From Lactonifactor longoviformis DSM 17459 (GTDB lineage: Bacteria; Bacillota; Clostridia; Lachnospirales; Lachnospiraceae): 64,000 nt of DNA. The DNA lies in NCBI RefSeq assembly GCF_900129135.1, contig NZ_FQVI01000008.1, forward strand, positions 62,001-126,000, given 5' to 3'. Under the pieces are notes generated by a model. The model saw only the letters and a program-made list of their open reading frames with translations, made no database searches and was not told the DNA's origin. A program made the translations under genes and the position numbers. Positions 28,080 to 42,476 of this stretch are shown in pieces; positions within the stretch are counted from its first letter, which is position 1; each line of letters begins with the position of its first letter.

Positions 28080-28174
28080 ATAACATCACCCAGTTACATT
28101 GTATAATTCATACTTTGCCTGTGGAATGTTGCTATATGCAGGTTGGTTGAAGTTTATAATTCACATTCCGTTTC

Positions 28175-28203
28175 TTGCATTGTTCGAGAAAGAGAACTAT
28201 AAT
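28175..28203 (+). promoter_or_regulatory. Sigma-A-type promoter for the 28224 operon
   Basis: TTGCAT and TATAAT with a 17-bp spacer, 20 bp upstream of the wHTH start codon. Other TATAAT-like hexamers in this intergenic region could serve the divergent XRE gene. Confidence 0.65.
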
Positions 28204-28223
28204 GTACTCTGTGGAGGTGCGAA

Positions 28224-28412: not shown

Positions 28413-29097
28413 AATTTTGATTATAGATGATGACAGAGAACTGTGCGCTTTGATTAAACGCAGCGTACAATCGGAACATATAGAAGCCGATTTTTGTAAT
28501 ACCGGAAAAGAGGGCTTGCAGAAATTAAAAGAGCAGGAGTATCAGCTTGTGGTGCTGGATGTGATGATGCCCGGTATGGATGGCTTTGAAACGCTGGAAG
28601 AAATCCGCAAAGAGAACAGCCTGCCGATTTTGATGTTTACATCCAAAAATGACAGCATTTCTAAAGTGCGGGGCTTACGGGCCGGGGCGGACGATTATCT
28701 GACAAAACCGTTTGATATGGACGAACTGATTGCCCGTATTGCGTCCCTCATTCGCCGCTACACCCGCTTTAATCATCAAGCCGGAGCTGTGCAAAAACTG
28801 GATTTTGATGGATTGCAAATTGACCTTGAAAATCGTTCTGTTACGACGGAAAATGGCACTTTTGAACTTCCACCAAAGGAATTTGATCTGCTCCTGTACT
28901 GCGCAAAGCATCAAGGAAAAATTTTGACAAAACAGCAGATTTATGAGGAAGTTTGGGGCGAAGAATATTTCTATGATGACAGTAACATTATGGCGATTAT
29001 CAGCCGGCTTCGTAAAAAATTAGAAGTCAATCCTTCAAGCCCAAAGTATATCCAAACGGTCAAAGGGATTGGCTACCGCTTTAATAAGGAGGTATAG
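28405..29097 (+). CDS. OmpR-family response regulator
   Basis: A 230-aa two-component regulator. Receiver domain (1-120): acidic pocket IDDDRE, phospho-acceptor D52 in VVLDVMMPG, Thr in LMFTSKN, Lys in LTKPFD. C-terminal winged helix (about 130-228): FELPPKEFDLLLYCAKHQ, YIQTVKGIGYRF. The SD AAGGAAC is moderate. It is followed by its kinase and probably activates the ABC transporter operon through the GCAAGGTT repeats at 30076. The set resembles lantibiotic or bacitracin resistance systems of Clostridia. Confidence 0.93.
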   Translation: MNKILIIDDDRELCALIKRSVQSEHIEADFCNTGKEGLQKLKEQEYQLVVLDVMMPGMDGFETLEEIRKENSLPILMFTSKNDSISKVRGLRAGADDYLTKPFDMDELIARIASLIRRYTRFNHQAGAVQKLDFDGLQIDLENRSVTTENGTFELPPKEFDLLLYCAKHQGKILTKQQIYEEVWGEEYFYDDSNIMAIISRLRKKLEVNPSSPKYIQTVKGIGYRFNKEV

Positions 29098-29102
29098 CCA
29101 AT

Positions 29103-30020
29103 ATGGAAATCATCGTTTTCTTGTCCATTGTGATTGCTGTTGTGGCTGTGCTGACTTCCATCGTTCTCGTTCGGCGCGTAAAAAAACAAATCGCAGAAAT
29201 GACCGATGTGCTGGTTGATGTGAAAAACGGAAATGGCAACCGGCGTATTCTGTCTGCAACAAATGAATTGACAGCACCTCTTGCCTATGAAATCAATGAG
29301 ATTGTTGTGTCCTATGAAAGCAGACTTTCAACTGTACGGCAGACAGAAGAAACCAACCGCCAGCTTATGACGAGCCTTTCCCATGATGTTCGGACACCCC
29401 TTACCACTCTGATTGGGTATCTTGACGCTGCACACAAAGGACTGGTCACAGGAAAAGACCGGGATGATTATATTGAAACCGCCCGACGGAAAGCCCATGA
29501 TCTGAAAGAATATATTGATGTGCTCTTTGACTGGTTCAAGTTAAATTCCAATGAGTTTGCTTTGGAAATCCAGAGCGTTGAGGCCGCAGAGCTGACAAGA
29601 AATATCCTGATTGACTGGATACCGATTTTTGAGGATAAACAGGTTGATTATGACATTGATATTCCCGAACAGCCTGTCCGGGTAAGATTGGATATGGACA
29701 GCTATATGAGGATCGTCAACAATCTCATTCAAAATGTAATCGCTCACAGCCATGCAGACAAAATCAAAATTGTCCTGTCAAAGAAGGAAAATAACATGGA
29801 GCTGCTGCTGGCGGATAATGGAGTAGGAATTGAGAAAGACGATTTGAAACACATATTTGAACGGCTTTATAAGTGTGATAAAGGACGCTCCGAAAAAGGA
29901 AGCGGACTTGGTCTTTCTATTGTCCATCAGCTTGTAGAAAAGATGGGTGGAAGCATAACAGTTGAAAGCTTTCCGGGAGAAGGAACTGAATTTATGTTGC
30001 TTTTTCCTTTGGAGATTTAA
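29103..30020 (+). CDS. Sensor histidine kinase
   Basis: A 305-aa kinase with one N-terminal membrane span (IVFLSIVIAVVAVLTSIVLV) and no large extracellular sensor. The phospho-accepting H94 lies in SLSHDVRTPLTTLIGYLDAA. The ATPase domain has N-box IVNNLIQNVIAHS, DNGVGIEKDD (G1) and GSGLGLSIVHQL (G2). The lack of an external domain suggests it senses through its membrane part or through the ABC transporter, as in related immunity systems (inference). It is 5 bp downstream of the regulator. Confidence 0.92.
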   Translation: MEIIVFLSIVIAVVAVLTSIVLVRRVKKQIAEMTDVLVDVKNGNGNRRILSATNELTAPLAYEINEIVVSYESRLSTVRQTEETNRQLMTSLSHDVRTPLTTLIGYLDAAHKGLVTGKDRDDYIETARRKAHDLKEYIDVLFDWFKLNSNEFALEIQSVEAAELTRNILIDWIPIFEDKQVDYDIDIPEQPVRVRLDMDSYMRIVNNLIQNVIAHSHADKIKIVLSKKENNMELLLADNGVGIEKDDLKHIFERLYKCDKGRSEKGSGLGLSIVHQLVEKMGGSITVESFPGEGTEFMLLFPLEI

Positions 30021-30075
30021 GCGGGTTCCCGTCTTTATGGCGGGAACCTTTGTCATTTTTGCCGGATTTCAAATT

Positions 30076-30119
30076 GCAAGGTTAATGCAAGGTTGCGGCA
30101 AGGTTAATGCAAGGTTGGC
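30076..30119 (+). promoter_or_regulatory. Four 11-bp direct repeats, likely response-regulator sites
   Basis: GCAAGGTT recurs at 30076, 30087, 30098 and 30109, exactly one helical turn apart, ending just before a TAGAAT -10-like hexamer. No good -35 is present, which fits an activator-dependent promoter. The ABC transporter operon begins at 30156. Confidence 0.7.
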
Positions 30120-30155
30120 GTGATAGAATACCTTACAGAACAGGAGGTTTTGAAT

Positions 30156-31082
30156 ATGGATACAAATTACATCATTGAAACAAAAAATCTGACGAAGCAA
30201 TATGGCTCACAAAAGAGTGTGGCTGACTTAAATATCCATGTGAAGCGTGGGAGAATTTATGGTCTGCTGGGCAGAAACGGAGCCGGAAAAACCACTACCA
30301 TGAAAATGCTGTTGGGCTTAACGAAGCCGACTTCCGGGGAGGTCAAAATCTGGGGGAAACCCTTGCAGGGGAATGAAAAGAAATTGCTGCCCCGTATTGG
30401 TAGCTTGATTGAGTCTCCCGGCTTTTATCCCAATCTGACCGGCACAGAGAACCTGCGTATCTTTGCTACCCTGCGGGGCGTACCAAACAATCATGCCATC
30501 AAAGATGTTCTGGATCTGGTAGGACTGCCTTACAAAGATAAAAAGCTCTTTTCACAGTATTCTCTTGGTATGAAGCAGCGGCTTGCCATCGCCCTTGCCG
30601 TTATGCACGATCCAGAACTTTTAATTTTGGATGAGCCGATCAACGGTCTCGATCCTATCGGTATTGCAGAAGTACGCTCCTTTATTCGGGAGCTTTGCGA
30701 CGCAAGAGGAAAAACCATTTTGATTTCCAGTCACATTCTTTCGGAGATTTCCTTGCTGGCTGACGATATTGGAATTATCGACCACGGCGCATTGCTGGAA
30801 GAAGAAAGCCTTGCTGAACTGGAGCAAAAAAGCAGTAAGCATATCCGGTTTACACTCTCTGATACTGCACAGGCGGCAAGAATTTTGGAACGCAATTTCC
30901 ATGAAAACCATTTTTCCATACAGGACGACCACAATCTGCGCCTGCACAACCTTGATCTGCCTGTGGGGAAAATTGTAACTGCCTTTGTAGAAAACGGATT
31001 GGAGGTATCGGAGGCGCATACCTGTGAAGAAAGTCTTGAAGATTACTTCAAGCGTGTGACAGGGGGCGAAGGAATTGCTTAA
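30156..31082 (+). CDS. ABC transporter ATP-binding protein, lantibiotic-immunity type
   Basis: A 308-aa ATPase. Walker A is GRNGAGKTT (residues 39-47), the signature region is FSQYSLGMKQRLAIALAV, Walker B is LLILDEPINGLD, and the switch His is in ILISSHILSEI. The order ATPase plus two permeases (LanF, LanE, LanG pattern) suggests removal of membrane-active peptides such as lantibiotics. The start was chosen at the ATG 8 nt behind AGGAGG. It overlaps the first permease by 8 bp. Confidence 0.9.
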   Translation: MDTNYIIETKNLTKQYGSQKSVADLNIHVKRGRIYGLLGRNGAGKTTTMKMLLGLTKPTSGEVKIWGKPLQGNEKKLLPRIGSLIESPGFYPNLTGTENLRIFATLRGVPNNHAIKDVLDLVGLPYKDKKLFSQYSLGMKQRLAIALAVMHDPELLILDEPINGLDPIGIAEVRSFIRELCDARGKTILISSHILSEISLLADDIGIIDHGALLEEESLAELEQKSSKHIRFTLSDTAQAARILERNFHENHFSIQDDHNLRLHNLDLPVGKIVTAFVENGLEVSEAHTCEESLEDYFKRVTGGEGIA

Positions 31083-31869
31083 ACTAATCAAATGCGAATT
31101 TTTGAAATTAAAACGGAAGCCCTTGGTATTTATTTCTCTGCTGCTTTCTGTTTTCATGCCATTGGCTTATGCTTTCTTTCTGGCAGATGTAAACACTGAT
31201 GTGGATGCTGTAAATGGAGTGATGTCCAGCCTGTTCCAGCTCAGTGCTTATTTGCTTTTGATGCCGCTCCTTGTGATACTGGCTTCCAATCTGCTGTTTG
31301 AGGAGCTGGACAATGACACACTAAAAAACCTTGTTACCATACCGATAAACAGAACCAAGTTGGTGCTGTCCAAGATGCTGGTTTTGCTATTGTTTGCCGT
31401 TGGCTTTATGGCAGTTGGAGGATTGGTAAATCTTGCGGTTTTGCTGTTTCAGGGCTGGGAGCCGGTTGGGTTTTGGACCTTGTTTGGCGTTGGGATAGAA
31501 GAAGGGCTGATTATGTGGGTAGGCGCACTTCCATGTATCCTGCTCGTTGTTCTTCTTAATAAAAACTATATCGTGTCGGTCGTGATTACCTTTTTCTATA
31601 CGACTGCAAATTATATCCTTTCGATGAGCGATGCGTTCCTCACACAGCCTTTTGGTTTGAATATCGGAACCCTGTTTCCGGGACCGCTGGCTTTCCGCTG
31701 GACCTTCCAATTTTATGACCAAAGCCAGACCAGTGCGGAATTGGCAGACTTGTTGGAACGGATCAGTCCGTATTTTCTGAATGGTGTTCAGGTGTTCGGT
31801 GTGATTGTTGGGGAAGCCGTTGTATTTCTTGCGCTGATTGCGTTGGTTTACCGGCGCCAGGAAATCTAA
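31075..31869 (+). CDS. ABC-2 type permease (LanE/MutE-like)
   Basis: A 264-aa membrane protein with about six spans, among them FISLLLSVFMPLAYAFFLAD and YIVSVVITFFYTTANYIL. The cytoplasmic motif LFEELDNDTLKNLVTIPINR is typical of ABC-2 permeases of the immunity type. Translation starts at TTG inside the end of the ATPase gene, which implies coupling. It pairs with the next permease to form the membrane part of the exporter. Confidence 0.87.
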   Translation: MLKLIKCEFLKLKRKPLVFISLLLSVFMPLAYAFFLADVNTDVDAVNGVMSSLFQLSAYLLLMPLLVILASNLLFEELDNDTLKNLVTIPINRTKLVLSKMLVLLLFAVGFMAVGGLVNLAVLLFQGWEPVGFWTLFGVGIEEGLIMWVGALPCILLVVLLNKNYIVSVVITFFYTTANYILSMSDAFLTQPFGLNIGTLFPGPLAFRWTFQFYDQSQTSAELADLLERISPYFLNGVQVFGVIVGEAVVFLALIALVYRRQEI

Positions 31870-31881
31870 GGGGGTGTAATT

Positions 31882-32697
31882 ATGTGGAATTTATTAAAAG
31901 CAGAATTGCTCAAGCTACGCCGGTGCCAAATACTTTGGGTGGGGCTGGTGGCGCTTGCACTCTGTCCGTTGGTGCAATATGGGAGCCAGCTGATTGTGGA
32001 GGCGGAGTACCGAAATCCAAACTATGATTTTTCCACTCTGTTTGAGAATGTTGTCTGGGGCAATACGCAGATGTTTTTTCCGATTTCACTGGTGATGATT
32101 GGCAGCTGGCTGATTGACAGAGAATCCACCCATGATACGCTGAAAAACATCATGACAATTCCTGTTTCCATGCCGAAAATGCTGGGAGCTAAGCTCTTTT
32201 GGGTCGGGATTTTTGCAGTCCTGCTGGGAATATACAGCGTTGGCGTTACCTTGATTACTGGATTGACGGTTGGATTATCGGGACTGACAGTGGAAGTGTT
32301 TTTTCATGGAGGTACACAGATCGTGTTGGCAGCTCTGACGACCTATTTGGTCTGTATGCCGCTGATCTTGATTTTTGGGCAGATCCGAGGGGCATATCTG
32401 GGAGGTTCCATTCTGGCGTTTTTCCTTGGATATAGCATGCTGTTCTTCAAAGGCGGTATCCTTGCCAGCATCTATCCGTTTTCTGCTGCGCTGATTTTAG
32501 TGGGCTTTGACATGAGTGGATATGCCGGAACAACCACAGCCCCGAATCCTTTGCTGGCAGTCATTGGGGTTGGCATCATGGTTCTCTGGGCGGTGCTGTT
32601 GTTACTGATGTCCAGTAACAAAAAAGAAATAAAATCCCGTAAACAGGCAAATTCCAAGGGAAAAGGAAAGCGTGCTGTACGCAGGAAAGGAAGGTGA
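31882..32697 (+). CDS. ABC-2 type permease (LanG/MutG-like)
   Basis: A 271-aa membrane protein with about six spans and the same cytoplasmic signature as its partner (STHDTLKNIMTIPVSMPKML). The C-terminal tail is strongly basic (KKEIKSRKQANSKGKGKRAV). The SD AAGGGGGTG precedes the ATG. It is the fourth gene of the two-component/ABC locus by transcription order and overlaps the region used as SD by the lipoprotein gene. Confidence 0.87.
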   Translation: MWNLLKAELLKLRRCQILWVGLVALALCPLVQYGSQLIVEAEYRNPNYDFSTLFENVVWGNTQMFFPISLVMIGSWLIDRESTHDTLKNIMTIPVSMPKMLGAKLFWVGIFAVLLGIYSVGVTLITGLTVGLSGLTVEVFFHGGTQIVLAALTTYLVCMPLILIFGQIRGAYLGGSILAFFLGYSMLFFKGGILASIYPFSAALILVGFDMSGYAGTTTAPNPLLAVIGVGIMVLWAVLLLLMSSNKKEIKSRKQANSKGKGKRAVRRKGR

Positions 32698-32702
32698 TAC
32701 CT

Positions 32703-33164
32703 GTGAAGAAAATAGTTCTATCATTATGCTTGATACTGTTGGGCGCTTCTGTGCTTTCCGGTTGTACAAAAGATGAAGTTCTCGATCAGTATAACAATAT
32801 TGTTCAGTCTGCTGGTTCCATAGCACTTACCGGAAATTCATCCTTACAAGGTACGAAAGAAAAAGGAATTGATGATTATACAGGAAGCTATACAGCCAAC
32901 TATGAGGATTTTTCAGATACAGAGTATTTGTTCGGCGGAACTTCCATAAAGCGTGAAGCGGGTAAGGATCTGTCTATTGACTGCGCGCTGGAGGTTACGG
33001 ATGGAACTGCAAAAGTATTTTGGATTTCTGGAGCTGATGAAGAAGTCACTTTGCTTGAAACAACCGGAACATATAGTGATACAATTACACTCCCTGAAGG
33101 TGGAAACTATATCGGCATTGAATGTGAAAATTTCACTGGAAGCATTGAATTGAATATGGAGTAA
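32703..33164 (+). CDS. Lipoprotein of the immunity-like locus
   Basis: A 153-aa secreted lipoprotein. The signal sequence KKIVLSLCLILLGASVLSGC ends in the lipobox LSGC with the lipidated Cys at residue 21. The mature part is rich in beta-forming residues and acidic (DDYTGSYTANYEDFSDTEYL, YIGIECENFTGSIELNME). It may sit on the membrane surface beside the exporter, as LanI-type proteins do (inference). The start is GTG, 8 nt behind GGAAGG; a GTG three codons upstream is too close to the SD. Confidence 0.78.
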   Translation: MKKIVLSLCLILLGASVLSGCTKDEVLDQYNNIVQSAGSIALTGNSSLQGTKEKGIDDYTGSYTANYEDFSDTEYLFGGTSIKREAGKDLSIDCALEVTDGTAKVFWISGADEEVTLLETTGTYSDTITLPEGGNYIGIECENFTGSIELNME

Positions 33165-33175
33165 CATTCTGCCGG

Positions 33176-33203
33176 ACGACGGCAAAAGAAAAAAAGCCGT
33201 CGT
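33176..33203. terminator. Stem-loop at the end of the immunity-like operon
   Basis: ACGACGGC and GCCGTCGT form a perfect 8-bp stem with an A-rich 12-nt loop, 12 bp past the lipoprotein stop. There is no T run after the stem, so termination is possible but weak. Confidence 0.4.
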
Positions 33204-33617
33204 AAAGCAGACACATTTCCACGCGCCTATGAAGCGGTGGCTTTGATTTCAGAGCCGCCGTTTCTTTTCGTTTATCCTAAACCAACGACGACCTAACACC
33301 GTGTAAATCCACGGCGGCACATAGGAGGATGCCGCCGTGTCTATGTTTGCCTTTTTTCACAGTACCCATGACCTGCACCAGCTAAAAAAAGCCTGTTCCC
33401 AGCAGCGGAGCAATGCGGTCAGAAGTATGCACTATACCATGTAATTAAACAGCAAAATATATTCCATGACGCTCGTATGGCTTTATGCCGTCCGGGCGCT
33501 TTTTTGTCCCTATGGAGCCGGAACATCGGGTCAGCATGGCCCGAACTTTATCCCCGGTGCCGCGCCCCACCACCCCATTCAGATTTTCCCAAAAAAGTCT
33601 GAATGGAGGAAGGACAG
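33204..33617 (+). other. IME-A spacer with a candidate 35-aa ORF and hairpins
   Basis: About 410 bp between the lipoprotein and the sigma-like genes. It contains the short frame described at 33337. A weak inverted repeat ends in a T run near 33469-33507. TTCAGA/TCTGAA arms flank the region just before the SD of the 33618 gene. No other gene is seen. Confidence 0.4.
33337..33444 (+). CDS. Candidate 35-aa small protein
   Basis: GTG start exactly 8 nt behind AGGAGG, then SMFAFFHSTHDLHQLKKACS and QQRSNAVRSMHYTM, then TAA. The strong and well-spaced SD is the main support. The peptide has a hydrophobic start and a basic C-terminal half. It was not recognised. A shorter frame from an ATG next to the SD is less likely. 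Confidence 0.35.
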   Translation: MSMFAFFHSTHDLHQLKKACSQQRSNAVRSMHYTM

Positions 33618-34031
33618 ATGGAAGTTACCATCAATTATAACGGACAAGCTGTGGCCGTGGAGGTCACGCTGGAAGTCTATGAATTTCTTGATCGGGCAGA
33701 TCACAAAACGGAGAACCTGTTCCATGAACAGCGGCGGCATTGGGATGGCCGGGAGTTTGACGAGTACATCATTACCACCGAGGGTGTAGGAGCCTACGGC
33801 GAAACGCCGGAAGAATACCTTTGCCGCATGGAAACGCTACATGAGCTGATGGCAGTTCTGGACACCTGTACCGAGGCCCAGCGCCGCCGGTTCCTGCTCT
33901 ATGCGCTTGACGGGCTGAGCCTTGCAGAGATCGGTGTGCTGTGCGGCTGCTCCAAAGTGGCTGTGTATCAAAGTGTGGAGGCGGTCAGAAAAAAATTTAT
34001 AAATTTCTTTGAGAGCAGGCTTAACGAATGA
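33618..34031 (+). CDS. Sigma-70 region 4-like HTH protein
   Basis: A 137-aa protein. The N-terminal part is beta-rich and acidic; the C-terminal 60 residues form a region-4-like HTH: EAQRRRFLLYALDGLSLAEI, GVLCGCSKVAVYQSVEAVRK. Such proteins are frequent in Tn916- and Tn4451-type elements, where they are presumed to drive element genes. The start ATG follows GGAGGAAGGACAG. It is the first of three similar genes in a row. Confidence 0.72.
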   Translation: MEVTINYNGQAVAVEVTLEVYEFLDRADHKTENLFHEQRRHWDGREFDEYIITTEGVGAYGETPEEYLCRMETLHELMAVLDTCTEAQRRRFLLYALDGLSLAEIGVLCGCSKVAVYQSVEAVRKKFINFFESRLNE

Positions 34032-34134
34032 CCTGTTTTCTGGCTACCAAGTGAAAGGGATCATTTCCCTTATCTCAGCGAGGGGCGGACAGCGGACGAG
34101 CTGCCCGCCTCTCCGATTTTCAGGAGGTAAGCCT

Positions 34135-34587
34135 ATGAAAACAATCAATCTGCGGTGGATGTATCCCCACTACCGGCATGACGAGTTTGTGGATGTTACG
34201 GACGAGGTATGGGCAGCGATGTATCAGGCCCAGCGGGAGATGGAGAACTATGAGCGTCGGAAAGTCTACCACCGCGCCTACTACTCTCTGGAGGCATACA
34301 GCTGGCTGGAAAATTACGCACTGGAACACAGCAGATCGCCGGAAGATATTTTGCTGGAACGAGAAGAAATGACCACCCGCCTGCACCTGATAGCAGCTCT
34401 GCCGGTGGCTCTGGCTCATGCCACTCCGACACAGGCCCGCCGTGTTCACGCCTACTACATTGCCGGTATCAAGCAGCCGGAAATCTCCCGGAGAGAGGGC
34501 GTCCACAGCAGCAAGGTCAGCGTTTCCATCCGTCGGGGTCTGCGGAATATGCGCCGCTGCTATGATGACCTTTTTCAAACAGAGTGA
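34135..34587 (+). CDS. Sigma-70-like transcription factor of IME-A
   Basis: A 150-aa protein beginning MKTINLRWMYPHYRHDEFVD, with EREEMTTRLHLIAALPVALA and a C-terminal HTH (ARRVHAYYIAGIKQPEISRR, EGVHSSKVSVSIRRGLRNMR). It is paralogous to the next gene, which begins MQTINLKQYYPFCKEDIFVE. It probably directs transcription of the mobilization genes downstream. The SD CAGGAGG is good. Confidence 0.75.
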   Translation: MKTINLRWMYPHYRHDEFVDVTDEVWAAMYQAQREMENYERRKVYHRAYYSLEAYSWLENYALEHSRSPEDILLEREEMTTRLHLIAALPVALAHATPTQARRVHAYYIAGIKQPEISRREGVHSSKVSVSIRRGLRNMRRCYDDLFQTE

Positions 34588-34597
34588 GGGCGTGCCT

Positions 34598-35059
34598 ATG
34601 CAGACCATCAATCTCAAACAATATTATCCATTTTGCAAAGAGGACATTTTTGTGGAGGTGTCCGATGAGATCGTCGAAGCGTTTCTTCTGGATAAGAGAG
34701 CCGAGGCCGCCAGAGAACGCAAGATGTTCCGGTATAAGGCGTTTTACTCCCTCGATTGTAACGATGGAATCGAAAATGCTGCAATCGGCTGGGCGCAGCC
34801 ATCGCCGGAGGATCATCTGATAGAAAAAGAAGAATTAGCCGAATACGAAGAACTGATACGGCGATTGTATGAAGCCATTTCTTCCCTGCCGCCTATGCAG
34901 GCTCGCCGTGTCCACGCCCGCTATATGCTGGGTATGAAAGTGAAAGATATTGCCGCAATGGAGGGTATCACACCATCACAGGCGGGAAAATCCATCCACG
35001 CTGCACTGCGGAGGCTGCGCCGGTACTTTGCGCGTCAGAAATGGACGGTCAATCTATAA
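34598..35059 (+). CDS. Sigma-70-like transcription factor of IME-A (second copy)
   Basis: A 153-aa protein with the same layout as the gene before it: INLKQYYPFCKEDIFVEVSD, then EKEELAEYEELIRRLYEAIS and the HTH ARRVHARYMLGMKVKDIAAM with EGITPSQAGKSIHAALRRLR. It starts 10 bp after its paralogue and has a weak GAGGG SD, so it may rely on coupling. The tandem pair probably arose by duplication or capture. Confidence 0.75.
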   Translation: MQTINLKQYYPFCKEDIFVEVSDEIVEAFLLDKRAEAARERKMFRYKAFYSLDCNDGIENAAIGWAQPSPEDHLIEKEELAEYEELIRRLYEAISSLPPMQARRVHARYMLGMKVKDIAAMEGITPSQAGKSIHAALRRLRRYFARQKWTVNL

Positions 35060-35087
35060 GCGTTTCCAAAGAAAAGAGGTGCATGAC

Positions 35088-35378
35088 ATGAACGAAAAAA
35101 TTACAGCCCAACCCCCAAAAGAAGAACGGCAGGAAGTCCTGAAGGAGATCCGGCAGCTTGAAAACCGCAAGAAGATTTTGGAGAACAAGCAACGAAACGA
35201 AGAACGCAGGGTTCGCACCCGCCGCCTGATTGAGCGCGGAGCCATTTTGGAGGGGATTTTCCCGCTGGCTTCCAGCCTTTCCGGCGCAGAGGTCAAAGCA
35301 TTTCTGATTGCCCTGTCCTATCTTCCGGGGGCTGCGGAATTGACTGCAAACCTGCCAAAATCCGGGGATATGCCATAA
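35088..35378 (+). CDS. DUF3847-like mobilization accessory protein
   Basis: A 96-aa protein with a strongly helical, charged N-terminal half (EERQEVLKEIRQLENRKKIL, ENKQRNEERRVRTRRLIERG) and a C-terminal part (ILEGIFPLASSLSGAEVKAF). It matches the DUF3847 proteins encoded before MobA/MobL relaxases, thought to be MobC-like relaxosome partners. Its position directly before the candidate oriT and the relaxase supports this. The SD AAGAGG is moderate. Confidence 0.72.
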   Translation: MNEKITAQPPKEERQEVLKEIRQLENRKKILENKQRNEERRVRTRRLIERGAILEGIFPLASSLSGAEVKAFLIALSYLPGAAELTANLPKSGDMP

Positions 35379-35392
35379 GTCCCTTGTTTACA

Positions 35393-35421
35393 AGGGCGCA
35401 CTTATACACCGTTGCCGGTGC
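35393..35421 (-). other. oriT: Candidate oriT of IME-A (RSF1010/MobQ type)
   Basis: The minus strand reads TAAGTGCGCCCTT (35404-35392), the core around the nic site known for RSF1010-type origins. It is preceded on the same strand by the hairpin CACCG-GCAA-CGGTG. Nicking would be expected between 35397 and 35396. It lies 160 bp upstream of a MobA/MobL-type relaxase. Confidence 0.65.
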
Positions 35422-35461
35422 TGTGCGCCCTGCCGGGGGCGTTGCGTACTTCGTCCGCGAT

Positions 35462-35490
35462 GGGAAGCTACGCTCCCCAAACCCCTTGTG
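35462..35490 (+). other. Second hairpin with CCCCAAACCCC motif before the relaxase
   Basis: GGGAAGC-TAC-GCTCCCC forms an imperfect hairpin (35462-35478) followed by AAACCCCTTGTG. A similar hairpin followed by CCCAAACCCT is seen at the candidate oriT sites of IME-B (45117) and ICE-2 (61652). It may be an accessory transfer site or a relic. Confidence 0.4.
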
Positions 35491-35564
35491 TGCTCTGCGC
35501 AGCCAAACACCCGCTTTGCGTTTGTCCGGCTCCACAGAGCCTGTTATCCCCTCACTGAAAGGAG

Positions 35565-37010
35565 GTGTTCCCCATAGATTTCTGTCATATCCCCGTCAGT
35601 ATCATCAAGCGCAGCGCAGGCCGTTCAGCCGTTGCCGCAGCTGCTTACCGCAGTGGAACCAAGCTGACAAATGAATGGGACGGAATGATCCACGACTACA
35701 CCCGGAAAGGCGGCATTGTCCATGCGGAGATCATGCTGCCTGCCCACGCCCCGCCGGAATTTGCAGACCGTTCTATCCTCTGGAACAGCGTGGAGCAAAT
35801 CGAGAAAGCAAGAGACAGCCAGCTTGCCCGCGAGATTGAGGCAGCTTTACCCCGTGAACTGTCCGGCGAACAACAGCTTGCCCTTGTGCGTGCCTATGTG
35901 AAGGACAACTTTGTAGACAAAGGAATGTGCGCCGACTTTGCTATCCATGACAAGGGAACCGGCAACCCTCATGTCCATATCATGCTGACGCTCCGGCCGT
36001 TGAAAGAAAATGGACAGTGGGGCGCAAAGTGCCGCAAGGCATACGATCTGGACGAGAATGGACAGCGTATCCCGGATGGGAAAGGCGGCTGGAAAAATCA
36101 TCGGGAGGATACGACCGACTGGAACGATAAAGGAAATGTGGAGATTTGGCGGGCAGCGTGGGCAGCCTACACCAACCGGGCACTGGAATCTGCCGGTAGA
36201 CCGGAGCGTATTGACCACCGCAGCTACAAGCGGCAGGGCATTGATAAAATTCCCTCTGTCCATCTGGGGCCAGCTGCCAGCCAAATGGAAAAGCGCGGTA
36301 TCCGCACCGACAAGGGGGAAGTAAACCGACAGATCGTCGCCGACAACAAGCTGCTGAAAGAAATCAAAGCTCGCATTACCCGTCTTTATCGCTGGTCGAA
36401 AGCGGAAGCGGAAAAACCACAAACGCAGCAAAGCAGCTTGACCGCCTTGTGGGAAGCCCAACAGCAGTTGAACGCTCCCCGCACCCGCACCGGCAAAATC
36501 CGGGCTTTGCAGGAAAGCGCTGCACTATTCAGCTTTTTGCAGGTAAACGGCATCCAGTCTATGCAGCAGCTTCATGAAAAAATCGCTGATATGAACAGCT
36601 GTTACTATGACCTGCGGGGAAAGATCGTCAAGGCTGAGCGCCGGATCGCCATTCTTACCGAACGCGGGGAGATGTGGGAACAGTACAACCAGTACAAGTC
36701 CATCCACAAGCAGCTTGCCAAAGTAAAACCGGAAAAACGGGAACAGTTTGAGCAGCGCCACAGCCGGGAACTGATCCTGTATGATGCAGCAGCCCGGTAT
36801 CTGAAAGAACTGAAAGACAGCGGCGAGGGGATCACCCCGAAGGCATGGCAGCGGGAAATCGACCAGCTGGCCGCCGGAAAGCAGACGGACACGCTTGCCA
36901 TGAAATCCATGAGGGAGGATTTGAAAGCAGTGGAACGGCTCCGCAAAACCGCCGAGCAGCTGTCCCGACAGGAAAGGGACAAGTCTCACGACCGTGGGCC
37001 GGAGCGGTAA
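35565..37010 (+). CDS. mobA: MobA/MobL-family relaxase of IME-A
   Basis: A 481-aa mobilization relaxase that nicks oriT and leads the strand into a helper conjugation channel. The N-terminus has CHIPVSIIKRSAGRSAVAAA AYRSG (family motif I region), and motif III is the HUH-type NPHVHIMLTLRP (about residues 135-146). The rest is helical. The GTG at 35565 lies inside the Shine-Dalgarno; the best-spaced codon, 8 nt behind GGAGG, is ATA at 35574, so the true start may be a rare AUA. It lies downstream of the candidate oriT. Confidence 0.87.
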   Translation: MFPIDFCHIPVSIIKRSAGRSAVAAAAYRSGTKLTNEWDGMIHDYTRKGGIVHAEIMLPAHAPPEFADRSILWNSVEQIEKARDSQLAREIEAALPRELSGEQQLALVRAYVKDNFVDKGMCADFAIHDKGTGNPHVHIMLTLRPLKENGQWGAKCRKAYDLDENGQRIPDGKGGWKNHREDTTDWNDKGNVEIWRAAWAAYTNRALESAGRPERIDHRSYKRQGIDKIPSVHLGPAASQMEKRGIRTDKGEVNRQIVADNKLLKEIKARITRLYRWSKAEAEKPQTQQSSLTALWEAQQQLNAPRTRTGKIRALQESAALFSFLQVNGIQSMQQLHEKIADMNSCYYDLRGKIVKAERRIAILTERGEMWEQYNQYKSIHKQLAKVKPEKREQFEQRHSRELILYDAAARYLKELKDSGEGITPKAWQREIDQLAAGKQTDTLAMKSMREDLKAVERLRKTAEQLSRQERDKSHDRGPER

Positions 37011-37075
37011 AGGCTACCGCGTTTTGGCGTACCCCTGTCAAGTGTGTCGCGTTTCACGACATACCTTTGCATACA

Positions 37076-37109
37076 GAAAAACCGCCGTACAGGTTTCCCC
37101 ATACGGCGG
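37076..37109 (-). terminator. Terminator of the toxin-antitoxin operon
   Basis: On the minus strand CCGCCGTA and TACGGCGG pair over an 8-bp stem with a 12-nt loop, then a run of five T. It lies 9 bp past the toxin stop codon and also faces the end of the relaxase gene. Confidence 0.75.
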
Positions 37110-37117
37110 CAGACTGT

Positions 37118-37408
37118 TTATTTGCCGAACAAGTCGCTGTGTGTGCCGGTGCGGGCCAGCGTCAGCACCAGAACATCATCCTCTATGCGGTAGACAAGCA
37201 GCCAGTCCGGGAGAATATGACATTCCCGATGGCCTGCCCAATCGCCGGACAGGTCATGGTCGCGGTTCTTATCCGGCAGCGGTTCGCCCATTGCCAGCAA
37301 TGCTACGACCTGCTCCAGCAGCTCAATCTTCAAGCCACGCTTTATGGCTCGTTTGTAGTCTTTTTTGAAACTGGTCGTGTACTTGACGGTATATTTGGTT
37401 TCTTTCAT
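37118..37408 (-). CDS. yafQ: YafQ-family toxin (RelE superfamily mRNA interferase)
   Basis: A 96-aa toxin that would cleave mRNA on the ribosome. It starts KYTVKYTTSFKKDYKRAIKR, with the conserved core HDLSGDWAGHRECHILPDWL and LLVYRIEDDVLVL. The His and Asp/Trp pattern matches YafQ. It overlaps the antitoxin stop by 4 bp. It should stabilise IME-A in the host population by post-segregational killing. Confidence 0.88.
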   Translation of the reverse strand: MKETKYTVKYTTSFKKDYKRAIKRGLKIELLEQVVALLAMGEPLPDKNRDHDLSGDWAGHRECHILPDWLLVYRIEDDVLVLTLARTGTHSDLFGK

Positions 37409-37683
37409 CTTTTCAGGTCAGCAAACAACTCGTCAAGGTCATTGTAGCCCTTTACAGACGGGTCTTTTGCAATCCTTTCCGCTTCCAGCATGGCAGCAAC
37501 CGTTTCTTTGTTCGGCTGTTCCAGCCTTACCTCAAAGGGAATGCCGCCTTCACGAAGCGACTGGCGCACAAAGATGTTAAACGCCGTAGTCAGGTTCATG
37601 CCAAGTTCAGTAAACAGTGCGTCCGCCTGCGCTTTCAAATCTGCGTCCATGCGGATACTGATGTTTGTGGTATTTCCAGCCAT
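37405..37683 (-). CDS. dinJ: RelB/DinJ-family antitoxin
   Basis: A 92-aa antitoxin. The N-terminal ribbon-helix-helix TNISIRMDADLKAQADALFT is followed by ELGMNLTTAFNIFVRQSLRE and a C-terminal toxin-binding part (GYNDLDELFADLKR). The start was chosen at the ATG behind AAAGGGG. It would repress its own operon through the paired TTTGCACGAA sites upstream. Confidence 0.88.
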   Translation of the reverse strand: MAGNTTNISIRMDADLKAQADALFTELGMNLTTAFNIFVRQSLREGGIPFEVRLEQPNKETVAAMLEAERIAKDPSVKGYNDLDELFADLKR

Positions 37684-37723
37684 ACGATCAACCCCTTTCT
37701 GCTGGCAATTATAGTATATGCCA

Positions 37724-37754
37724 TTTGCACGAAGAAAACAATACTTTGCACGAA
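37724..37754 (-). promoter_or_regulatory. Paired TTTGCACGAA operators of the toxin-antitoxin operon
   Basis: The 10-mer TTTGCACGAA occurs at 37724-37733 and 37745-37754, 21 bp apart (two helical turns, same face). A TATAAT hexamer on the minus strand lies between the first copy and the antitoxin start. This spacing fits cooperative binding of a ribbon-helix-helix antitoxin. Confidence 0.6.
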
Positions 37755-37809
37755 TATTTAACAATAAATTCATTCGAGGAGGTTACACGCTTTATGAAAG
37801 AAATCATTT

Positions 37810-38208
37810 ATGAAGAACAACAAGACTGAACCTATCCCTGTCATGGATTACCGCCAGTACCGCAGAGCGCGGAGGCTGGTGCATGAGTGCTGTAACTACA
37901 TTGACGGAAACTGTATCGCCCTGGACGATGGGGAGGAATGCATCTGTGTCCAGTCCATTTCCTACTCCCTGTTGTGCAGGTGGTTTCGGGCGGCGGTATT
38001 GCCGCAGGATAAGGAACTGGAAACGGCGCTGTTCCACCGACTGAATGCTAAGAAATGCGCTGTATGTGGGGCGCTGTTTACCCCCGGTTCTAACAGGGCC
38101 AAATATTGCCCGGAATGTGCCGCGCGCATGAAGCGGATCAACGCCGCAAAGCGCAAGCGGAAACAACGGGAGAAATGTCACGCTTTAGGGGCTGAAAAAC
38201 CCTTGTAA
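37810..38208 (+). CDS. Cysteine-rich zinc-finger-like protein of IME-A
   Basis: A 132-aa protein: PVMDYRQYRRARRLVHECCN, then a C-terminal C4-type finger CAVCGALFTPGSNRAKYCPE C. It matches the cysteine-rich proteins common in Firmicutes mobile elements, probably nucleic-acid binding. An ATG 16 nt upstream has the better SD (GAGGAGG) and starts MKEIIYEEQQD in another frame before a TGA. This looks like the native N-terminus displaced by a 1-nt frameshift, with restart at 37810. Confidence 0.7.
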   Translation: MKNNKTEPIPVMDYRQYRRARRLVHECCNYIDGNCIALDDGEECICVQSISYSLLCRWFRAAVLPQDKELETALFHRLNAKKCAVCGALFTPGSNRAKYCPECAARMKRINAAKRKRKQREKCHALGAEKPL

Positions 38209-38321
38209 ATCAAGGCTTTTTTCGAGGGTGTCAAAGGCAGGCTGATAGATTTATCCTCTGACTCCTAAAATAGCCTTAAAATGCGTACAGAATCCCAAGA
38301 GAATCCCCAAGGAGGAACCCT

Positions 38322-39071
38322 ATGTCAGACAATCGAAAATATTATTACCTGAAACTCAAAGAAAACTATTTTGACGATGATTCTATCGTGCTGCTGGAAA
38401 GTATGCAGGACGGTGTGCTGTATTCTAACATTCTGCTCAAGCTGTATCTGAAATCGCTGAAACATGGCGGGCGGCTCCAGCTTGACGAGGACATGCCTTA
38501 CACGGCGCAGATAATCGCCACCATCACCCGCCAGCAGATCGGCACTGTGGAGAGAGCCTTGCAAATCTTTTTGAAGCTGGGTCTTGTGGAAGTGCTGGAC
38601 AGCGGCACATTCTACATGAGCAACATCGAACTTTTAATCGGCCAGTCCTCTACCGAGGCTGAGCGAAAGCGGGCTGCAAGGCTTCAAAATAAGGCTCTTT
38701 CTGCGCTCCGGACAAGTGGCGGACATTTGTCCGACATTCGTCCACCAGAGATAGAGATAGAGTTAGAGAAAGAGATAAAGATAAAGAGAGAGATAGAGAA
38801 GGTACGCCCTGAAATGGGGCACCCTTCCCACACCTATGGCCGTTACCAGAATATTTTCCTGACGGATGAAGAACTGGCTGACTTGCAGGCCAGTTTTCCT
38901 GCTGTATGGGAACAGTACATCGAAAAACTGTCCGAGTACATGGCTTCTACCGGCAAGCGTTATCAGAGCCATGCAGCGACCATCCGGCGCTGGGCCGGTG
39001 AGGACGCTAAAAAAACTGTCACACCCTCACGCAACCGGGATTACAGCGTAAAGGAGGATGAAACTGTATGA
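38322..39071 (+). CDS. Replisome organizer (phage-type initiator) of IME-A
   Basis: A 249-aa protein. The N-terminal domain (RKYYYLKLKENYFDDDSIVL, NILLKLYLKSLKHGGRLQLD, TRQQIGTVERALQIFLKLGL) is a phage replisome-organizer winged helix. A charged linker PPEIEIELEKEIKIKREIEK follows, and a C-terminal domain (YGRYQNIFLTDEELADLQAS) would contact the helicase loader encoded next. The linker DNA is identical to that of IME-B and is a candidate origin. The SD AAGGAGG is good, and the gene overlaps the loader gene by 4 bp. Confidence 0.85.
   Translation: MSDNRKYYYLKLKENYFDDDSIVLLESMQDGVLYSNILLKLYLKSLKHGGRLQLDEDMPYTAQIIATITRQQIGTVERALQIFLKLGLVEVLDSGTFYMSNIELLIGQSSTEAERKRAARLQNKALSALRTSGGHLSDIRPPEIEIELEKEIKIKREIEKVRPEMGHPSHTYGRYQNIFLTDEELADLQASFPAVWEQYIEKLSEYMASTGKRYQSHAATIRRWAGEDAKKTVTPSRNRDYSVKEDETV
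38718..38783 (+). repeat. 66-nt origin-like block in the IME-A replisome organizer gene
   Basis: It begins with the palindrome GGACA-TT-TGTCC and repeated GTCC, then runs of GAGATA/GAGAAA hexamers. It is identical base for base to 48047-48112 in IME-B, although the flanking coding DNA has diverged. This suggests a constrained cis site, probably iterons of a replication origin. Confidence 0.6.
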
Positions 39072-39931
39072 TTGAGATTACCGCAGAAATCCGGGCGTTC
39101 ATCGACAAGGCAGCTGCCGGTGTGGAATTGGCTGAGGACGAGTATATAGACTTGTCAGACGGGCTCATTCACTGTAAGAAATGCGGCGGCCAGAGGCAGA
39201 CCGTTGTGCCATGCTTTGGGAAATCCGGCTACTTTATGCCGCGTTGCATCTGCCAGTGCCAGCGGGAAGCTGAGGAGCAGCGCAAGGCTGCTGAAGAACG
39301 GCAGCGCCGTATGGAGCGTATCAAACGCCGAAAGGCACAGGGCTTGCAAGACCGTTATCTGTACGACTACACATTTTCCAATGATAACGGGCAAAACCCA
39401 TTGATGGACAAGGCTCATGCCTATGTGGAGAACTGGAAAGAGGCATATAAGAGCAATATCGGGCTTTTGCTGTTTGGAGATGTGGGAACCGGCAAGTCTT
39501 TTTTCGCCGGATGTATTGCCAACGCTCTACTTGACCAGGATGTGCCGGTGCTGATGACGAACTTTCCCACCATTCTGAACCGCCTGACCGGGATGTTCGC
39601 TGAGGACAGGTCGGAGTTTATTGCCAGCTTTGATGAGTATGACTTGCTTATCATTGACGATTTGGGTGTAGAGCGCAGTACCGAATATGCTATGGAGCAG
39701 ATGTTTTTCGTCATTGACAGCCGCTATCGCAGCCGCAGACCCATGATTATCACAACAAACTTGAAACTGTCCGAGCTGAAAAACCCGCCTGATCTGGCCC
39801 ACGCCCGTATCTATGACCGTATTTTGGAACGGTGTGCGCCGATCCTCTTTGACGGGAAGAATTTTCGGGAAGAAAATGCCGGTGCTACCCGACAGACAGC
39901 AAAAGACATTGTAAACAGTAAGCACGACTGA
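39068..39931 (+). CDS. DnaC-like helicase loader ATPase of IME-A
   Basis: A 287-aa AAA+ ATPase. An N-terminal zinc-like motif (CKKCGGQRQTVVPCFGKSGY, RCICQC) is followed by Walker A LLFGDVGTGKSFFAGCI (about 138-150) and Walker B LLIIDDLGVERSTEYAMEQM, then PMIITTNLKLSEL (sensor). It would load the host DnaB-type helicase at the origin opened by the replisome organizer. It overlaps that gene as ATGA. Confidence 0.9.
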   Translation: MIEITAEIRAFIDKAAAGVELAEDEYIDLSDGLIHCKKCGGQRQTVVPCFGKSGYFMPRCICQCQREAEEQRKAAEERQRRMERIKRRKAQGLQDRYLYDYTFSNDNGQNPLMDKAHAYVENWKEAYKSNIGLLLFGDVGTGKSFFAGCIANALLDQDVPVLMTNFPTILNRLTGMFAEDRSEFIASFDEYDLLIIDDLGVERSTEYAMEQMFFVIDSRYRSRRPMIITTNLKLSELKNPPDLAHARIYDRILERCAPILFDGKNFREENAGATRQTAKDIVNSKHD

Positions 39932-39974
39932 TTTTTTACCGGGCGGCACAGACCCGTTCGGAGAAAGGAGCGCC

Positions 39975-40169
39975 ATGAACAAAGAACCCCGTACTATGCA
40001 GGTGGCAGACGCCGTTACTGCGTCCAGAGCGCCGGAAAACACGCCGGCGATGGTAAAGAAAATCGGTAAGACGACCTACAAGGTTCATGTCCATTTCAGC
40101 AATACCAGCACAGAAACCATGAGCGATAAAATCAAGCGTATGCTCAAAAATGAAATTCAGCAGATGTGA
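39975..40169 (+). CDS. tnpW: TnpW-like transposon protein
   Basis: A 64-aa protein: PRTMQVADAVTASRAPENTP, then VKKIGKTTYKVHVHFSNTST and a basic helix DKIKRMLKNEIQQM. It matches TnpW, a small conserved protein of Tn4451-like elements with unknown role. The start is 6 nt behind AAAGGAG. The IME-B copy at 49251 occupies the same position after the helicase loader. Confidence 0.8.
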   Translation: MNKEPRTMQVADAVTASRAPENTPAMVKKIGKTTYKVHVHFSNTSTETMSDKIKRMLKNEIQQM

Positions 40170-40246
40170 CAGACTGATAAACGAAGCCGCCTTGTGCTAA
40201 ACTGATGATGGTATGCACCAAAATTTTTGTCAAGGAGGACACAAAA

Positions 40247-40612
40247 ATGCTTTACACAGAAAAAGAGAAACATGAAATTGAGCGAGTAAAGGAAGTCTTT
40301 GCGGAACATCTGCGGCAAAGCCCCGATTTTGAACTGCTCTGGTCGGACAAGGTGGGCTATGTCTGGCTGACGATTGGCGTAAATCCGCTTTATGTGGATA
40401 CCGGTATCAGGATAGAATCAGCCGCCGATCTCTGCGGCAGGTGTTTGGACGATGTTGCTACGGATGTTTTGTATATGACGGGCAACGATCATGCACTGGA
40501 AGCAGCCGACCCGCTGGAATTGGCCGAAATCAAGCGGCGCTGGGAGTCATATATCAACCAGCTGCCAGACTACGCGTATCTCTGCAAAGACCTGCTGAAC
40601 GGAAAAATGTAA
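40247..40612 (+). CDS. Hypothetical protein near the IME-A right end
   Basis: A 121-aa acidic protein: YTEKEKHEIERVKEVFAEHL, LLWSDKVGYVWLTIGVNPLY, IESAADLCGRCLDDVATDVL, YAYLCKDLLNGKM. No family was recognised; the pattern DKVGYVWLTI suggests a small globular fold. The SD CAAGGAGG is strong, and a terminator follows. It is the last gene before the att end. Confidence 0.65.
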   Translation: MLYTEKEKHEIERVKEVFAEHLRQSPDFELLWSDKVGYVWLTIGVNPLYVDTGIRIESAADLCGRCLDDVATDVLYMTGNDHALEAADPLELAEIKRRWESYINQLPDYAYLCKDLLNGKM

Positions 40613-40624
40613 TCTATCAAACGA

Positions 40625-40662
40625 GGTGTCAGGAGCCATACAATGCTTCTGGCACCTTTTTT
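40625..40662 (+). terminator. Terminator at the IME-A right end
   Basis: GGTGTCAGGAGC pairs with GCTTCTGGCACC (12 bp, two imperfect pairs) and is followed by a T6 run. It would stop IME-A transcripts before the virD4 fragment. Confidence 0.75.
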
Positions 40663-40680
40663 GTAGATTTTTTGTGAATT

Positions 40681-40696
40681 TGATTAAAAAGTCCTT
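40681..40696 (-). repeat. IME-A right att arm
   Basis: On the minus strand it reads AAGGACTTTTTAATCA, 14 nt inside the GG core. It mirrors the left arm AAGTGACTTCTTAATCA. Confidence 0.6.
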
Positions 40697-40712
40697 GACA
40701 ATTTGTCTCTGG

Positions 40713-41553
40713 CAAGACCGCAAAAAGCATACTTATCTCATGCGGCGCGAGGTTAGCCCCATTCGACATTAAGGAGCTGCGGGAGCTTATGGAAACCGAC
40801 GAAATGGAGCTTGACACCATAGGCGACAGAAAGACAGCCCTTTTCGTGATTATCAGCGACACCGACGACACCTTTAACTTTGTCGTGAGTATTCTCTACA
40901 CACAGTTATTCAACCTTTTATGCGACAAAGCAGATGATGAATATGGCGGGCGGCTTCCCGTCCATGTTAGGTGCTTACTTGATGAATTTGCGAATATCGG
41001 GCAGATACCAAAGTTTGAAAAGCTCATTGCAACGATACGGAGCCGGGAAATCTCCGCGTCAATCATCTTGCAGAGCCAGTCACAGCTAAAGGCAATCTAC
41101 AAGGACAACGCCGATACCATAGTCGGCAACTGCGACACCACGCTTTTCTTGGGCGGCAAGGAGAAAACCACCCTCAAAGAAATATCGGAGATTTTAGGCA
41201 AGGAAACGATAGACAGCTTCAACACTTCCGAAACCAGAGGGCGGGAGCTTTCGCATGGGCTGAACTATCAGAAATTGGGAAAGCAGCTTATGACGGAAGA
41301 TGAAATCGCAGTCATGGACGGAGGGAAATGTATCTTGCAGCTACGCGGGGTGCGCCCGTTCTTTTCGGACAAATTCGACATAACGAAACACCCGAAATAC
41401 AAGTACCTATCCGACGCAGACCCGAAGAACGCCTTTGACATGGAAAAGCACCTTAAACGCCGCCCCGCCATTGTCAAGCCCGACGAGGTTTTTGACTATT
41501 ACGAGATTGACGCAGCAGACTTACAGGAGGACGCAGACCATGAGGAAACGTAG
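40713..41553 (+). pseudogene. virD4: virD4-like coupling protein gene, 3' part
   Basis: Encodes the C-terminal 280 residues of the ICE-2 coupling protein, beginning KTAKSILISCGARLAPFDIK in the native frame. Walker B is VRCLLDEFANIGQIPKFEKL, followed by TIRSREISASIILQSQSQLK and GNCDTTLFLGGKEKTTLKEI. There is no start signal at its 5' end; the nearest internal ATG (40789) would give a protein without Walker A. It is joined in frame to 24048-25015 if IME-A excises. Confidence 0.88.
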
Positions 41554-41710: not shown

Positions 41711-42121
41711 CAGCATGGCAGACCGCCGGGGGACAGGGGAAGCTACACTTCCCCTACGCTGCCTTGCGGCAGCTACCCCTTTGTGAACTTGCGGGAAGCG
41801 AACACCTTGCTACGCAAGCTATTCACTTCCCGCAAGTCTGAAAAAAACGTCCGGCAGCACAGCGGGACACAGAAAGGAGCGATTGAAGCAATCACATCTA
41901 TCCATACCGGCTACATGATACGCGCCCCCACTTTCCGGCGCAGTACACAGCGGCAGGAGCCGCACCCCTTACAACTGAATACCGCCGCGCCGCAGGACTT
42001 ACGCAGCGCGGGGACAGCCGCCTTTACCAGAGGGCGGTTTTTTTATGCGGCGGCGACCATACGCTGACCGCCTTTTGTCCGCTTGCCGGACAGCCGCAGA
42101 CGCGGCAGAAAGGATATATTT
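41711..42121 (+). other. Structured 410-bp ICE-2 spacer with clustered hairpins
   Basis: No convincing gene is present. Perfect hairpins follow each other: AGGGGAAG-CTACA-CTTCCCCT (41735-41755), GCTGCC-TTGC-GGCAGC (41758-41773), and CTTGCGGGAAG with CTTCCCGCAAG (41788-41836), which encloses CTTGC-TAC-GCAAG. A further GC-rich stem ending in a T run lies near 42018-42043. Candidate roles are a transfer or single-strand replication origin, or a regulatory leader for the maff2 operon. Confidence 0.5.
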
Positions 42122-42246
42122 ATGGCATTTTTCAATAGCGCAGTAGACGTTTTGCAGACCCTTGTTGTAGCACTTGGAGCCGGGCTTGGTATCTGGGGCG
42201 TGATTAACCTCATGGAAGGCTACGGCAACGACAATCCGGGCGCGAA
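42122..42246 (+). pseudogene. maff2: maff2, 5' half (ICE-2), cut by IME-B
   Basis: Encodes AFFNSAVDVLQTLVVALGAG and LGIWGVINLMEGYGNDNPGA, the membrane half of a Maff2-family conjugation protein, then runs into IME-B and stops at 42262. The start has AGAAAGGATATATTT upstream. The 3' half lies at 51254-51344; joining across the AA core restores 216 bp (71 aa), the usual size, with GCG AAA AGC at the seam. Confidence 0.87.
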
Positions 42247-42321
42247 TGCTCATGTGCGGTAAAGTAACAAATGATAATTTGATAGACAGCAGCCACTATT
42301 TCCGAAACACAGACCAATACG

Positions 42322-42357
42322 AAAAGCTGATGTGGGGATTTTCCTATATCAGCTTTT
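42322..42357. terminator. Terminator near the IME-B left end
   Basis: AAAAGCTGAT and ATCAGCTTTT form a perfect 10-bp stem. The arms end in T on both strands, so it can act in both directions and insulate IME-B from maff2 transcription. Confidence 0.7.
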
Positions 42358-42383
42358 GTCTTTCTAAGCATTTTTGGGAAAGT

Positions 42384-42458
42384 GATGTATTTGTATCTTT
42401 CCTATTGACAGCCAGCCTTTGAAGTGATATATTTATCTCGACAAGCGACAAATACATC
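42384..42458 (+). promoter_or_regulatory. Promoter with three operator half-sites for the DUF3796/XRE genes
   Basis: TTGACA (42405-42410), a 17-bp spacer and TATATT (42428-42433) form a near-ideal promoter. GATGTATTTGT (42384-42394) is a perfect inverted match of ACAAATACATC (42448-42458), and a related GATATATTTAT copy overlaps the -10. The XRE protein at 43145 is the obvious candidate repressor. Confidence 0.65.
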
Positions 42459-42476
42459 TCATCGGAGGACACCATT

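Follow-up and report, generated by a model that had tools for sequence, protein, structure and literature searches.

The minus strand of positions 35381-35437 in the window, the 64-kb stretch of Lactonifactor longoviformis DNA analysed here, is, with a probability of about 0.93, the oriT of a 15.7-kb IME, and its predicted nic lies at G35397^C35396. Judged by its sequence, the site is an ordinary MOBQ oriT of a known kind (RSF1010/pIP501-type). Its unexpected parts, both comparative predictions, are the fold of the stems around the nic and the start codon of the relaxase.

The minus strand of 35445-35365 begins GCAACGCCCCCGGCAGGGCGCACAGCACCGGCAACGGTGTATAAGTGCGCCCTTGTAAACAAGGGACTTATGG and contains, at 35393-35404, the nic core TAAGTGCG^CCCT, an exact match whose cut position is taken from the cleavage of RSF1010 oligonucleotides. 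The original prediction of a known nic core is borne out letter for letter, both against TAAGTGCG/CCCT, at which RSF1010 MobA cleaves oligonucleotides according to the available passages of PMC4814116, and against the published MOBQ consensus core as it appears in the accessible text of PMC3832669. This is the sole exact copy of TAAGTGCGCCCT in the 64-kb window; shuffled windows contain 0.01 copies on average, with a match in 1 of 100 shuffles. When up to two mismatches are allowed, four sites are found in the window versus a chance mean of 5.19, and the other three all lie more than 8 kb from the core at 35393. The whole genome holds the TAAGTGCGCCCT core twice, the second copy (L035) preceding a further MobA/MobL relaxase gene on the same contig.

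Two nucleotides before the core stands stem A (35407-35420, minus strand), the candidate relaxase-recognition hairpin CACCG-GCAA-CGGTG, with arms at 35416-35420 and 35407-35411 and the loop GCAA, for which both sequence and covariation speak. Hairpin and core together lie within 35392-35421, the interval to which the earlier reading had correctly assigned them, and the inverted repeat that a MOBQ oriT should carry immediately 5' of its core, on the core's own strand, is present as CACCG/CGGTG. The full MOBQ consensus NWACCNNTAAGTGCGCCCTYNN is matched in part: the core and the Y agree, but the WACC does not, since the window reads CGGTGTA before the core. The WACC letters fall in a hairpin arm that is variable across the family. 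A small GGGA/TCCC inverted repeat at 35462-35477 offers another place for the nic, in which case the RSF1010-type core would be incidental; no nic-like core occurs there at up to two mismatches, so this candidate was rejected, and in relatives the core at 35393 recurs upstream of the relaxase at much the same location, oriented opposite to it. Cleavage elsewhere in the region is accordingly very improbable.

The conservation of the site is broad. A relaxase match is present in 60 of 200 genomes of the same family (Lachnospiraceae), and the family alignment matches 31 of 398 genomes drawn from the phylum. The upstream DNA was inspected at 70 loci from the family search (L003-L072, among them that of the window), and 40 of them carry an opposite-strand core at up to two mismatches upstream of the relaxase, one of these (L031) being doubtful. 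The remaining 30 of the 70 show no minus-strand core at this threshold upstream. Nineteen of them form a subgroup whose MobQ relaxase begins (M)PCPH (L015, L019-L021, L037-L039, L041, L045-L055), where no core within two mismatches was found in the 700 bases upstream (251 for L048, 681 for L051); the other 11 include L032, with a plus-strand site, L062-L064, with a more divergent core, and L071. In named genomes, the best 80 loci among the matches listed, with relaxases 45-100% identical and many close to one another, have the core in 79 cases, L128 being the miss, and the same motif search over 700 bases inside the relaxase gene of these loci gave nothing better than two mismatches. Altogether, a site was found at 130 of the 162 loci whose relaxase start had been placed, and in 129 cases it is on the opposite strand from the relaxase; such constancy of place and orientation is strong evidence for an oriT over a chance match. 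The single exception, L032, has its oriT on the same strand as the relaxase gene; both of its flanking stems are changed yet paired (CGCAAAG/CTTTGCG and CCCTTT/AAAGGG). The genome of the window also holds, on contig C29, a stretch (L071) that matches only relaxase residues 1-28, at 93-96% identity, within an open frame of 236 aa; its oriT keeps hairpin A, has an altered core (TAAGTGC-CCAT), and shows a 3' inverted repeat that is changed but still matching.

The element served by this oriT, IME-A, spans 15,697 bp (25016-40712), with GG at both junctions (25014-25015 and 40711-40712). It interrupts the virD4/traG coupling-protein gene of a host ICE. The 5' part of this gene lies at 24048-25034 on the plus strand (PF02534), its frame running 19 bases into the IME; the 3' part, counted from its first ATG, lies at 40789-41553 on the same strand (TraG-D_C, 3e-38; PF02534, 2e-30), and its homology to intact virD4 begins at 40711. 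Two relatives (L200, L201) possess the uninterrupted virD4 gene, matching the left flank up to 25015 and the right flank from 40711 at 97-98% identity with a 2-base overlap, GG, so that the label IME in the original prediction is upheld by an empty site in both. The element has its own large serine recombinase for integration and excision (25107-26987, plus strand; Resolvase, Recombinase and DUF4368 domains), its own MobA_MobL relaxase and oriT, and defined ends with an empty target site, as befits an IME. On the plus strand it further encodes a phage-type replisome organiser protein (38322-39071; PF09681, 2e-29) and a DnaC/IstB-like ATPase (39068-39931; PF01695, 3e-13), while its cargo comprises a two-component system with an ABC transporter and a YafQ/RelB pair. 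A Pfam scan of 16 of the IME-A proteins revealed no T4SS family and no MobC/MobB-type accessory protein. RSF1010 has accessory proteins of the MobC/MobB type, whereas among the genes scanned in IME-A the neighbour of the relaxase is a DUF3847 protein (35088-35378, plus strand; PF12958, 5e-16), a family annotated beside MobQ relaxases elsewhere and possibly a relaxosome accessory.

Insertion of serine-recombinase IMEs into traG/virD4 of Tn5252-type ICEs is known from the available portions of PMC5704250. In two further genomes (G119, G137), virD4 matches of 73-75% identity continue into the left end of IME-A, which suggests from sequence that elements of this type have a fixed target. By the descriptions in the same source, as far as available, Tn6104 and IME_Sco1050_traG, both in ICEs of the Tn5252 superfamily, share with IME-A a serine recombinase, an internal site in the VirD4 gene, a replisome organizer and, for Tn6104, DnaC (PMC5704250); IME-A differs by its cargo of a two-component system with ABC transporter and YafQ/RelB, the likeness being one of description and not of sequence. 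A probable second element lies in the same ICE at 42000-51200 of the window, with a NikA/MobC-like gene (45296-45670), a Relaxase-family gene (45633-47264) and two genes assigned by inspection of their translations, one for a replisome organiser (47651-48400) and one for a serine recombinase (49551-51161). Another ICE-like conjugation module, also seen by eye from the translations, occupies the minus strand of 1-22100, with a VirB4-like gene (16091-18514) and a serine recombinase (20560-22062); mobile elements thus seem to be stacked side by side here.

The placement of the site before a MobA/MobL relaxase likewise held: downstream lies an intact relaxase gene of the MOBQ type (35574-37010, plus strand; PF03389, 5e-97), related in sequence to the solved structures 4ht4 (nicking enzyme) and 2ns6 (mobilization protein A). 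Tyr24 and His132/His134 are invariant in the 11 rows of relaxase alignment A1. The earlier epithet RSF1010-like suits the core match and is loose as a label for the system, whose nearest matches are relaxases of Bacillota. The oriT could in principle be a decayed remnant in an immobile element, and the L071 stretch, with relaxase residues 1-28 only and an altered core, indicates that such decay may happen. In IME-A, however, no stop interrupts the relaxase frame, the element is inserted exactly and relatives have empty sites, and at seven named-genome loci among the matches listed (L074-L080) the core and hairpin A are the same and the relaxase is 97-100% identical, all of which makes decay an improbable reading.

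The relaxase of the window has no ATG at the position where its relatives read M-A-I-Y/F-H; the codon there is ATA (35574-35576), 8 bases after a Shine-Dalgarno sequence AGGAGG at 35560-35565, and by comparison of start codons the protein appears to start at this ATA. Comparison covered 113 distinct start regions, which exclude the PCPH subgroup and leave L062-L064 uncounted, and in which six positions are mis-registered or odd. The codons found were ATA in 47, ATG in 30, ACG in 10, GTG in 8, ATC in 6, TTG in 5, CTG in 1 and others in 6, so that the codon at this position is ATG or one base off in 107 of the 113; for the codon just before it the figure is 13 of 113, and for the codon just after it 1 of 113. 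Near-cognate codons (ATA, ACG, ATC or CTG) account for 64 of the 113 (within L004-L157, plus the window), and in 63 of these 64 there is no in-frame ATG, GTG or TTG upstream with a Shine-Dalgarno sequence, defined as five bases of AAGGAGGTGATC at 4-11 nt; 60 of the 64 cases are itemised. Several have no ATG, GTG or TTG in frame back to the preceding stop.

An in-frame GTG at 35565, 9 bases upstream of the ATA, was considered as the relaxase start and rejected: it overlaps the Shine-Dalgarno sequence, and in L089 one base fewer puts the GTG out of frame while the Shine-Dalgarno sequence and the ATA are kept, L071 having GCG instead. The sequence comparison therefore points to conserved initiation at AUA, ACG, AUC or CUG in this relaxase family. 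No report of a near-cognate start of relaxases was found in the literature searched, which consisted of titles, abstract openings and passages, with most subscription papers outside it. Annotation may mis-call or miss relaxase genes with a non-standard start. On Monoglobus plasmid 12 (L198/L155), a 65%-identical relaxase, matched without its first 38 residues, is absent from the plasmid's gene table, an incomplete table in which DUF3847 and neighbouring genes do appear.

Around the core and hairpin A, the minus strand holds three further inverted repeats. Stem B (35397-35427) pairs CGCAC (35423-35427) with GTGCG (35397-35401), encloses stem A and covers the five bases 5' of the nic; it can be extended to 9 bp (35393-35401/35423-35431), an inverted repeat that includes the nic. 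Stem C (35381-35396) pairs CCCTTG (35391-35396) with CAAGGG (35381-35386) across the loop TAAA, within inverted-repeat arms at 35381-35387 and 35390-35396, and begins at the first base 3' of the nic. Stem C' (35428-35437), CCC-GGCA-GGG, lies flush with the outer side of stem B. The 9-nt nic-spanning repeat and the repeat on the 3' side go beyond the original prediction, which had neither.

These stems were counted in 55 non-redundant representatives (the window among them, none sharing more than 85% identity over 80 bases). Flush stem C reaches at least 4 bp in 42 of the 55 versus a mean of 2.4 in shuffled tails (maximum 8), at least 5 bp in 36 versus 0.6 and at least 6 bp in 32 versus 0.15; because the representatives are related, such shuffles overstate significance and the counts do not equal independent events. 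It is absent in 13 of the 55, including the clade near L007/L108. The B arm is present in 46 representatives versus a shuffled mean of 4.4 (maximum 10) and absent in 9, and stem C' occurs in 36 of the 46 that have the B arm versus a shuffled mean of 3.6 (maximum 10). Stem A was scored in 44 of the 55 under a strict script rule, which required perfect arms and no more than 4 nt between stem and core. One representative, L040, has 4 mismatches and falls inside a gene, and is probably a false site; it was kept in the counts of stems B, C and C' and dropped from the fold count and from the alignment. L062-L064, missed by the motif search, stand outside the counts; L062 and L063 have a stem C that is wholly changed, to CACCGAG/CTCGGTG.

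Pairing is retained where the letters differ. Among the 19 representatives without CCCT after the nic, 11 have their own matching stem C arm (CCGT/ACGG in five, CACT/AGTG and CTCT/AGAG in two each, CTGT/ACAG and CAAT/ATTG in one each), whereas an arm pairs with a foreign one in 39 of 1640 combinations. The 3-bp arms of C', of six types, pair with their own partner in 34 of 46 cases and with a foreign one in 263 of 1730. In alignment A2, made of 49 of the 55 representatives (L040, L068, L072, L131, L193 and L194 left out), the covariation score of A, B and C' is 0.323 versus 0.155 when shuffled, with 0 of 500 shuffles reaching 0.323, and at most 0.089 when the structure is slid. Two-sided changes affect all five pairs of stem A and all three of C', which pair in 92.5% and 76.7% of cells, respectively. 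Stem B is nearly invariant, with two-sided changes in one pair of five, because half of it is the nic core. RNAalifold without a given structure finds A and part of B; it did not find stem C on the alignment, the loop of C being too variable in length to align, and stem C was for this reason tested alignment-free.

Folding of the 80-base sites as single-stranded DNA gives a mean z of -3.45 against shuffles, with values below -2 in 46 of 54; in the optimal folds the 3' side of the nic is paired downstream in 28 of 54 and the 5' side upstream in 43 of 54. Stem C and the 9-bp version of B are mutually exclusive in the window, as both use CCCT. The optimum of a 70-base fold contains C (-17.5 kcal/mol; A with 9-bp B, -15.8), and that of a 71-base fold (35370-35440) contains 9-bp B (-17.5 kcal/mol). 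Such exclusivity fits, without proving, a switch like that of pMV158. As described in the accessible parts of PMC5863519, the oriT of this MOBV plasmid also has overlapping inverted repeats around the nick, some of them mutually exclusive; it differs in relaxase family, core and geometry, and its switch has been footprinted, whereas in the window one is only suggested (PMC5863519).

Covariation alone cannot tell DNA hairpins from symmetric protein sites, and the chance that the extra stems act as DNA hairpins is put at about even. It is a serious, if smaller, possibility that the oriT is correctly identified while B, C and C' are sites bound as double strands by DUF3847, by the relaxase or by some regulator, or else structures formed in the mRNA of DUF3847 and the relaxase. 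The region does lie between the DUF3847 and relaxase genes, symmetric protein sites are likewise palindromic, and pIP501 TraA represses its own promoter at oriT, as stated in the available text of PMC4981023. Yet the persistence of pairing through sequence change, in 11 of 19 non-CCCT sites for C and across the six arm types of C', disfavours a sequence-specific site, and stem C starts exactly at the nic. Stem C is found, moreover, in L196 and L073, whose annotation lacks a DUF3847 gene over the stretch seen, and no T run follows it on the plus strand; on these two grounds an intrinsic terminator was rejected as its identity.

Comparison with known MOBQ origins shows which parts are shared. 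RSF1010/R1162 (IncQ) has the same nic core TAAGTGCG/CCCT, a hairpin just 5' of it and a MobA-type relaxase, and its upstream CTCggaGAG-CGCAC (L154, 760-880) repeats the C'-B arrangement in almost the same letters as the clostridial outer stem. It differs in the hairpin sequence, in a flush stem C of just 4 bp and in the distance from CGCAC to the core, 45 nt upstream compared with 18 nt in the window, which for its part lacks the WACC of the published consensus. pIP501/pRE25 (Inc18, MOBQ; L073) shares the core, its position on the strand opposite the relaxase and a 7-bp stem C at the nic; stem B was not found in this oriT, and the plasmid differs in being conjugative with its own T4SS and in a relaxase start of TTG. 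Among nine further MOBQ plasmid loci, RSF1010, L220, L221 and L227 have B with flush C' (B lying 49 nt upstream in L227), L224 has B alone, and L222, L223, L225 and L226 have neither. The oriTs of RSF1010 and of pIP501 are each described as 38 bp, the latter in the passages available from PMC4981023 and the former in a source likewise available in part. Such a length is too short for B and C', which should thus not be essential, and accessory at most, in these two plasmids. No description of extra stems at the nic was found in the literature searched, which comprised titles, abstract openings and passages, most subscription papers lying outside it.

In the proposed mechanism, the serine recombinase would excise IME-A and so restore the virD4 gene of the host ICE. 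The MOBQ relaxase would then bind hairpin A and the adjacent single-stranded TATAAGTGCG, cleave the strand at G35397^C35396 and remain attached to the 5' end of C35396 through its Tyr (residue 24 after the start codon). A cut at this minus-strand position is inferred by analogy with RSF1010, as is a leading strand that runs to lower coordinates; pIP501 TraA likewise cuts a GpC within its nic site, according to the accessible part of PMC4981023. The leading strand would enter the recipient from C35396 through the T4SS of a helper ICE, and with this direction the relaxase gene would enter last. Stems C', B and C probably form on the single strand, either by supercoiling-driven extrusion or on the transferred strand, with B over the 5' flank of the nic and C over the 3' flank. 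Their role may be to keep the nic closed as long as B has not been opened by the relaxase, or to keep the two ends together for rejoining when transfer ends.

It is proposed tentatively, as a generalisation that may well prove too broad, that many MOBQ oriTs share a four-stem fold, C'-B(A)-nic-C, cut at the junction of two abutting stems that serve as lock or splint, and that relaxase synthesis in gut clostridia begins at a conserved near-cognate codon. The site itself offers a precisely placed, testable nic in a mobile-element family that many gut clostridia carry. The covarying stems, for their part, suggest that many MOBQ origins function as a unit extending beyond the 38-bp core employed to date. 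The conserved non-standard start, if true, would point to control of transfer at translation initiation: with a start at AUA, ACG, AUC or CUG, transfer would stay at a low level and depend on how faithfully translation is initiated.
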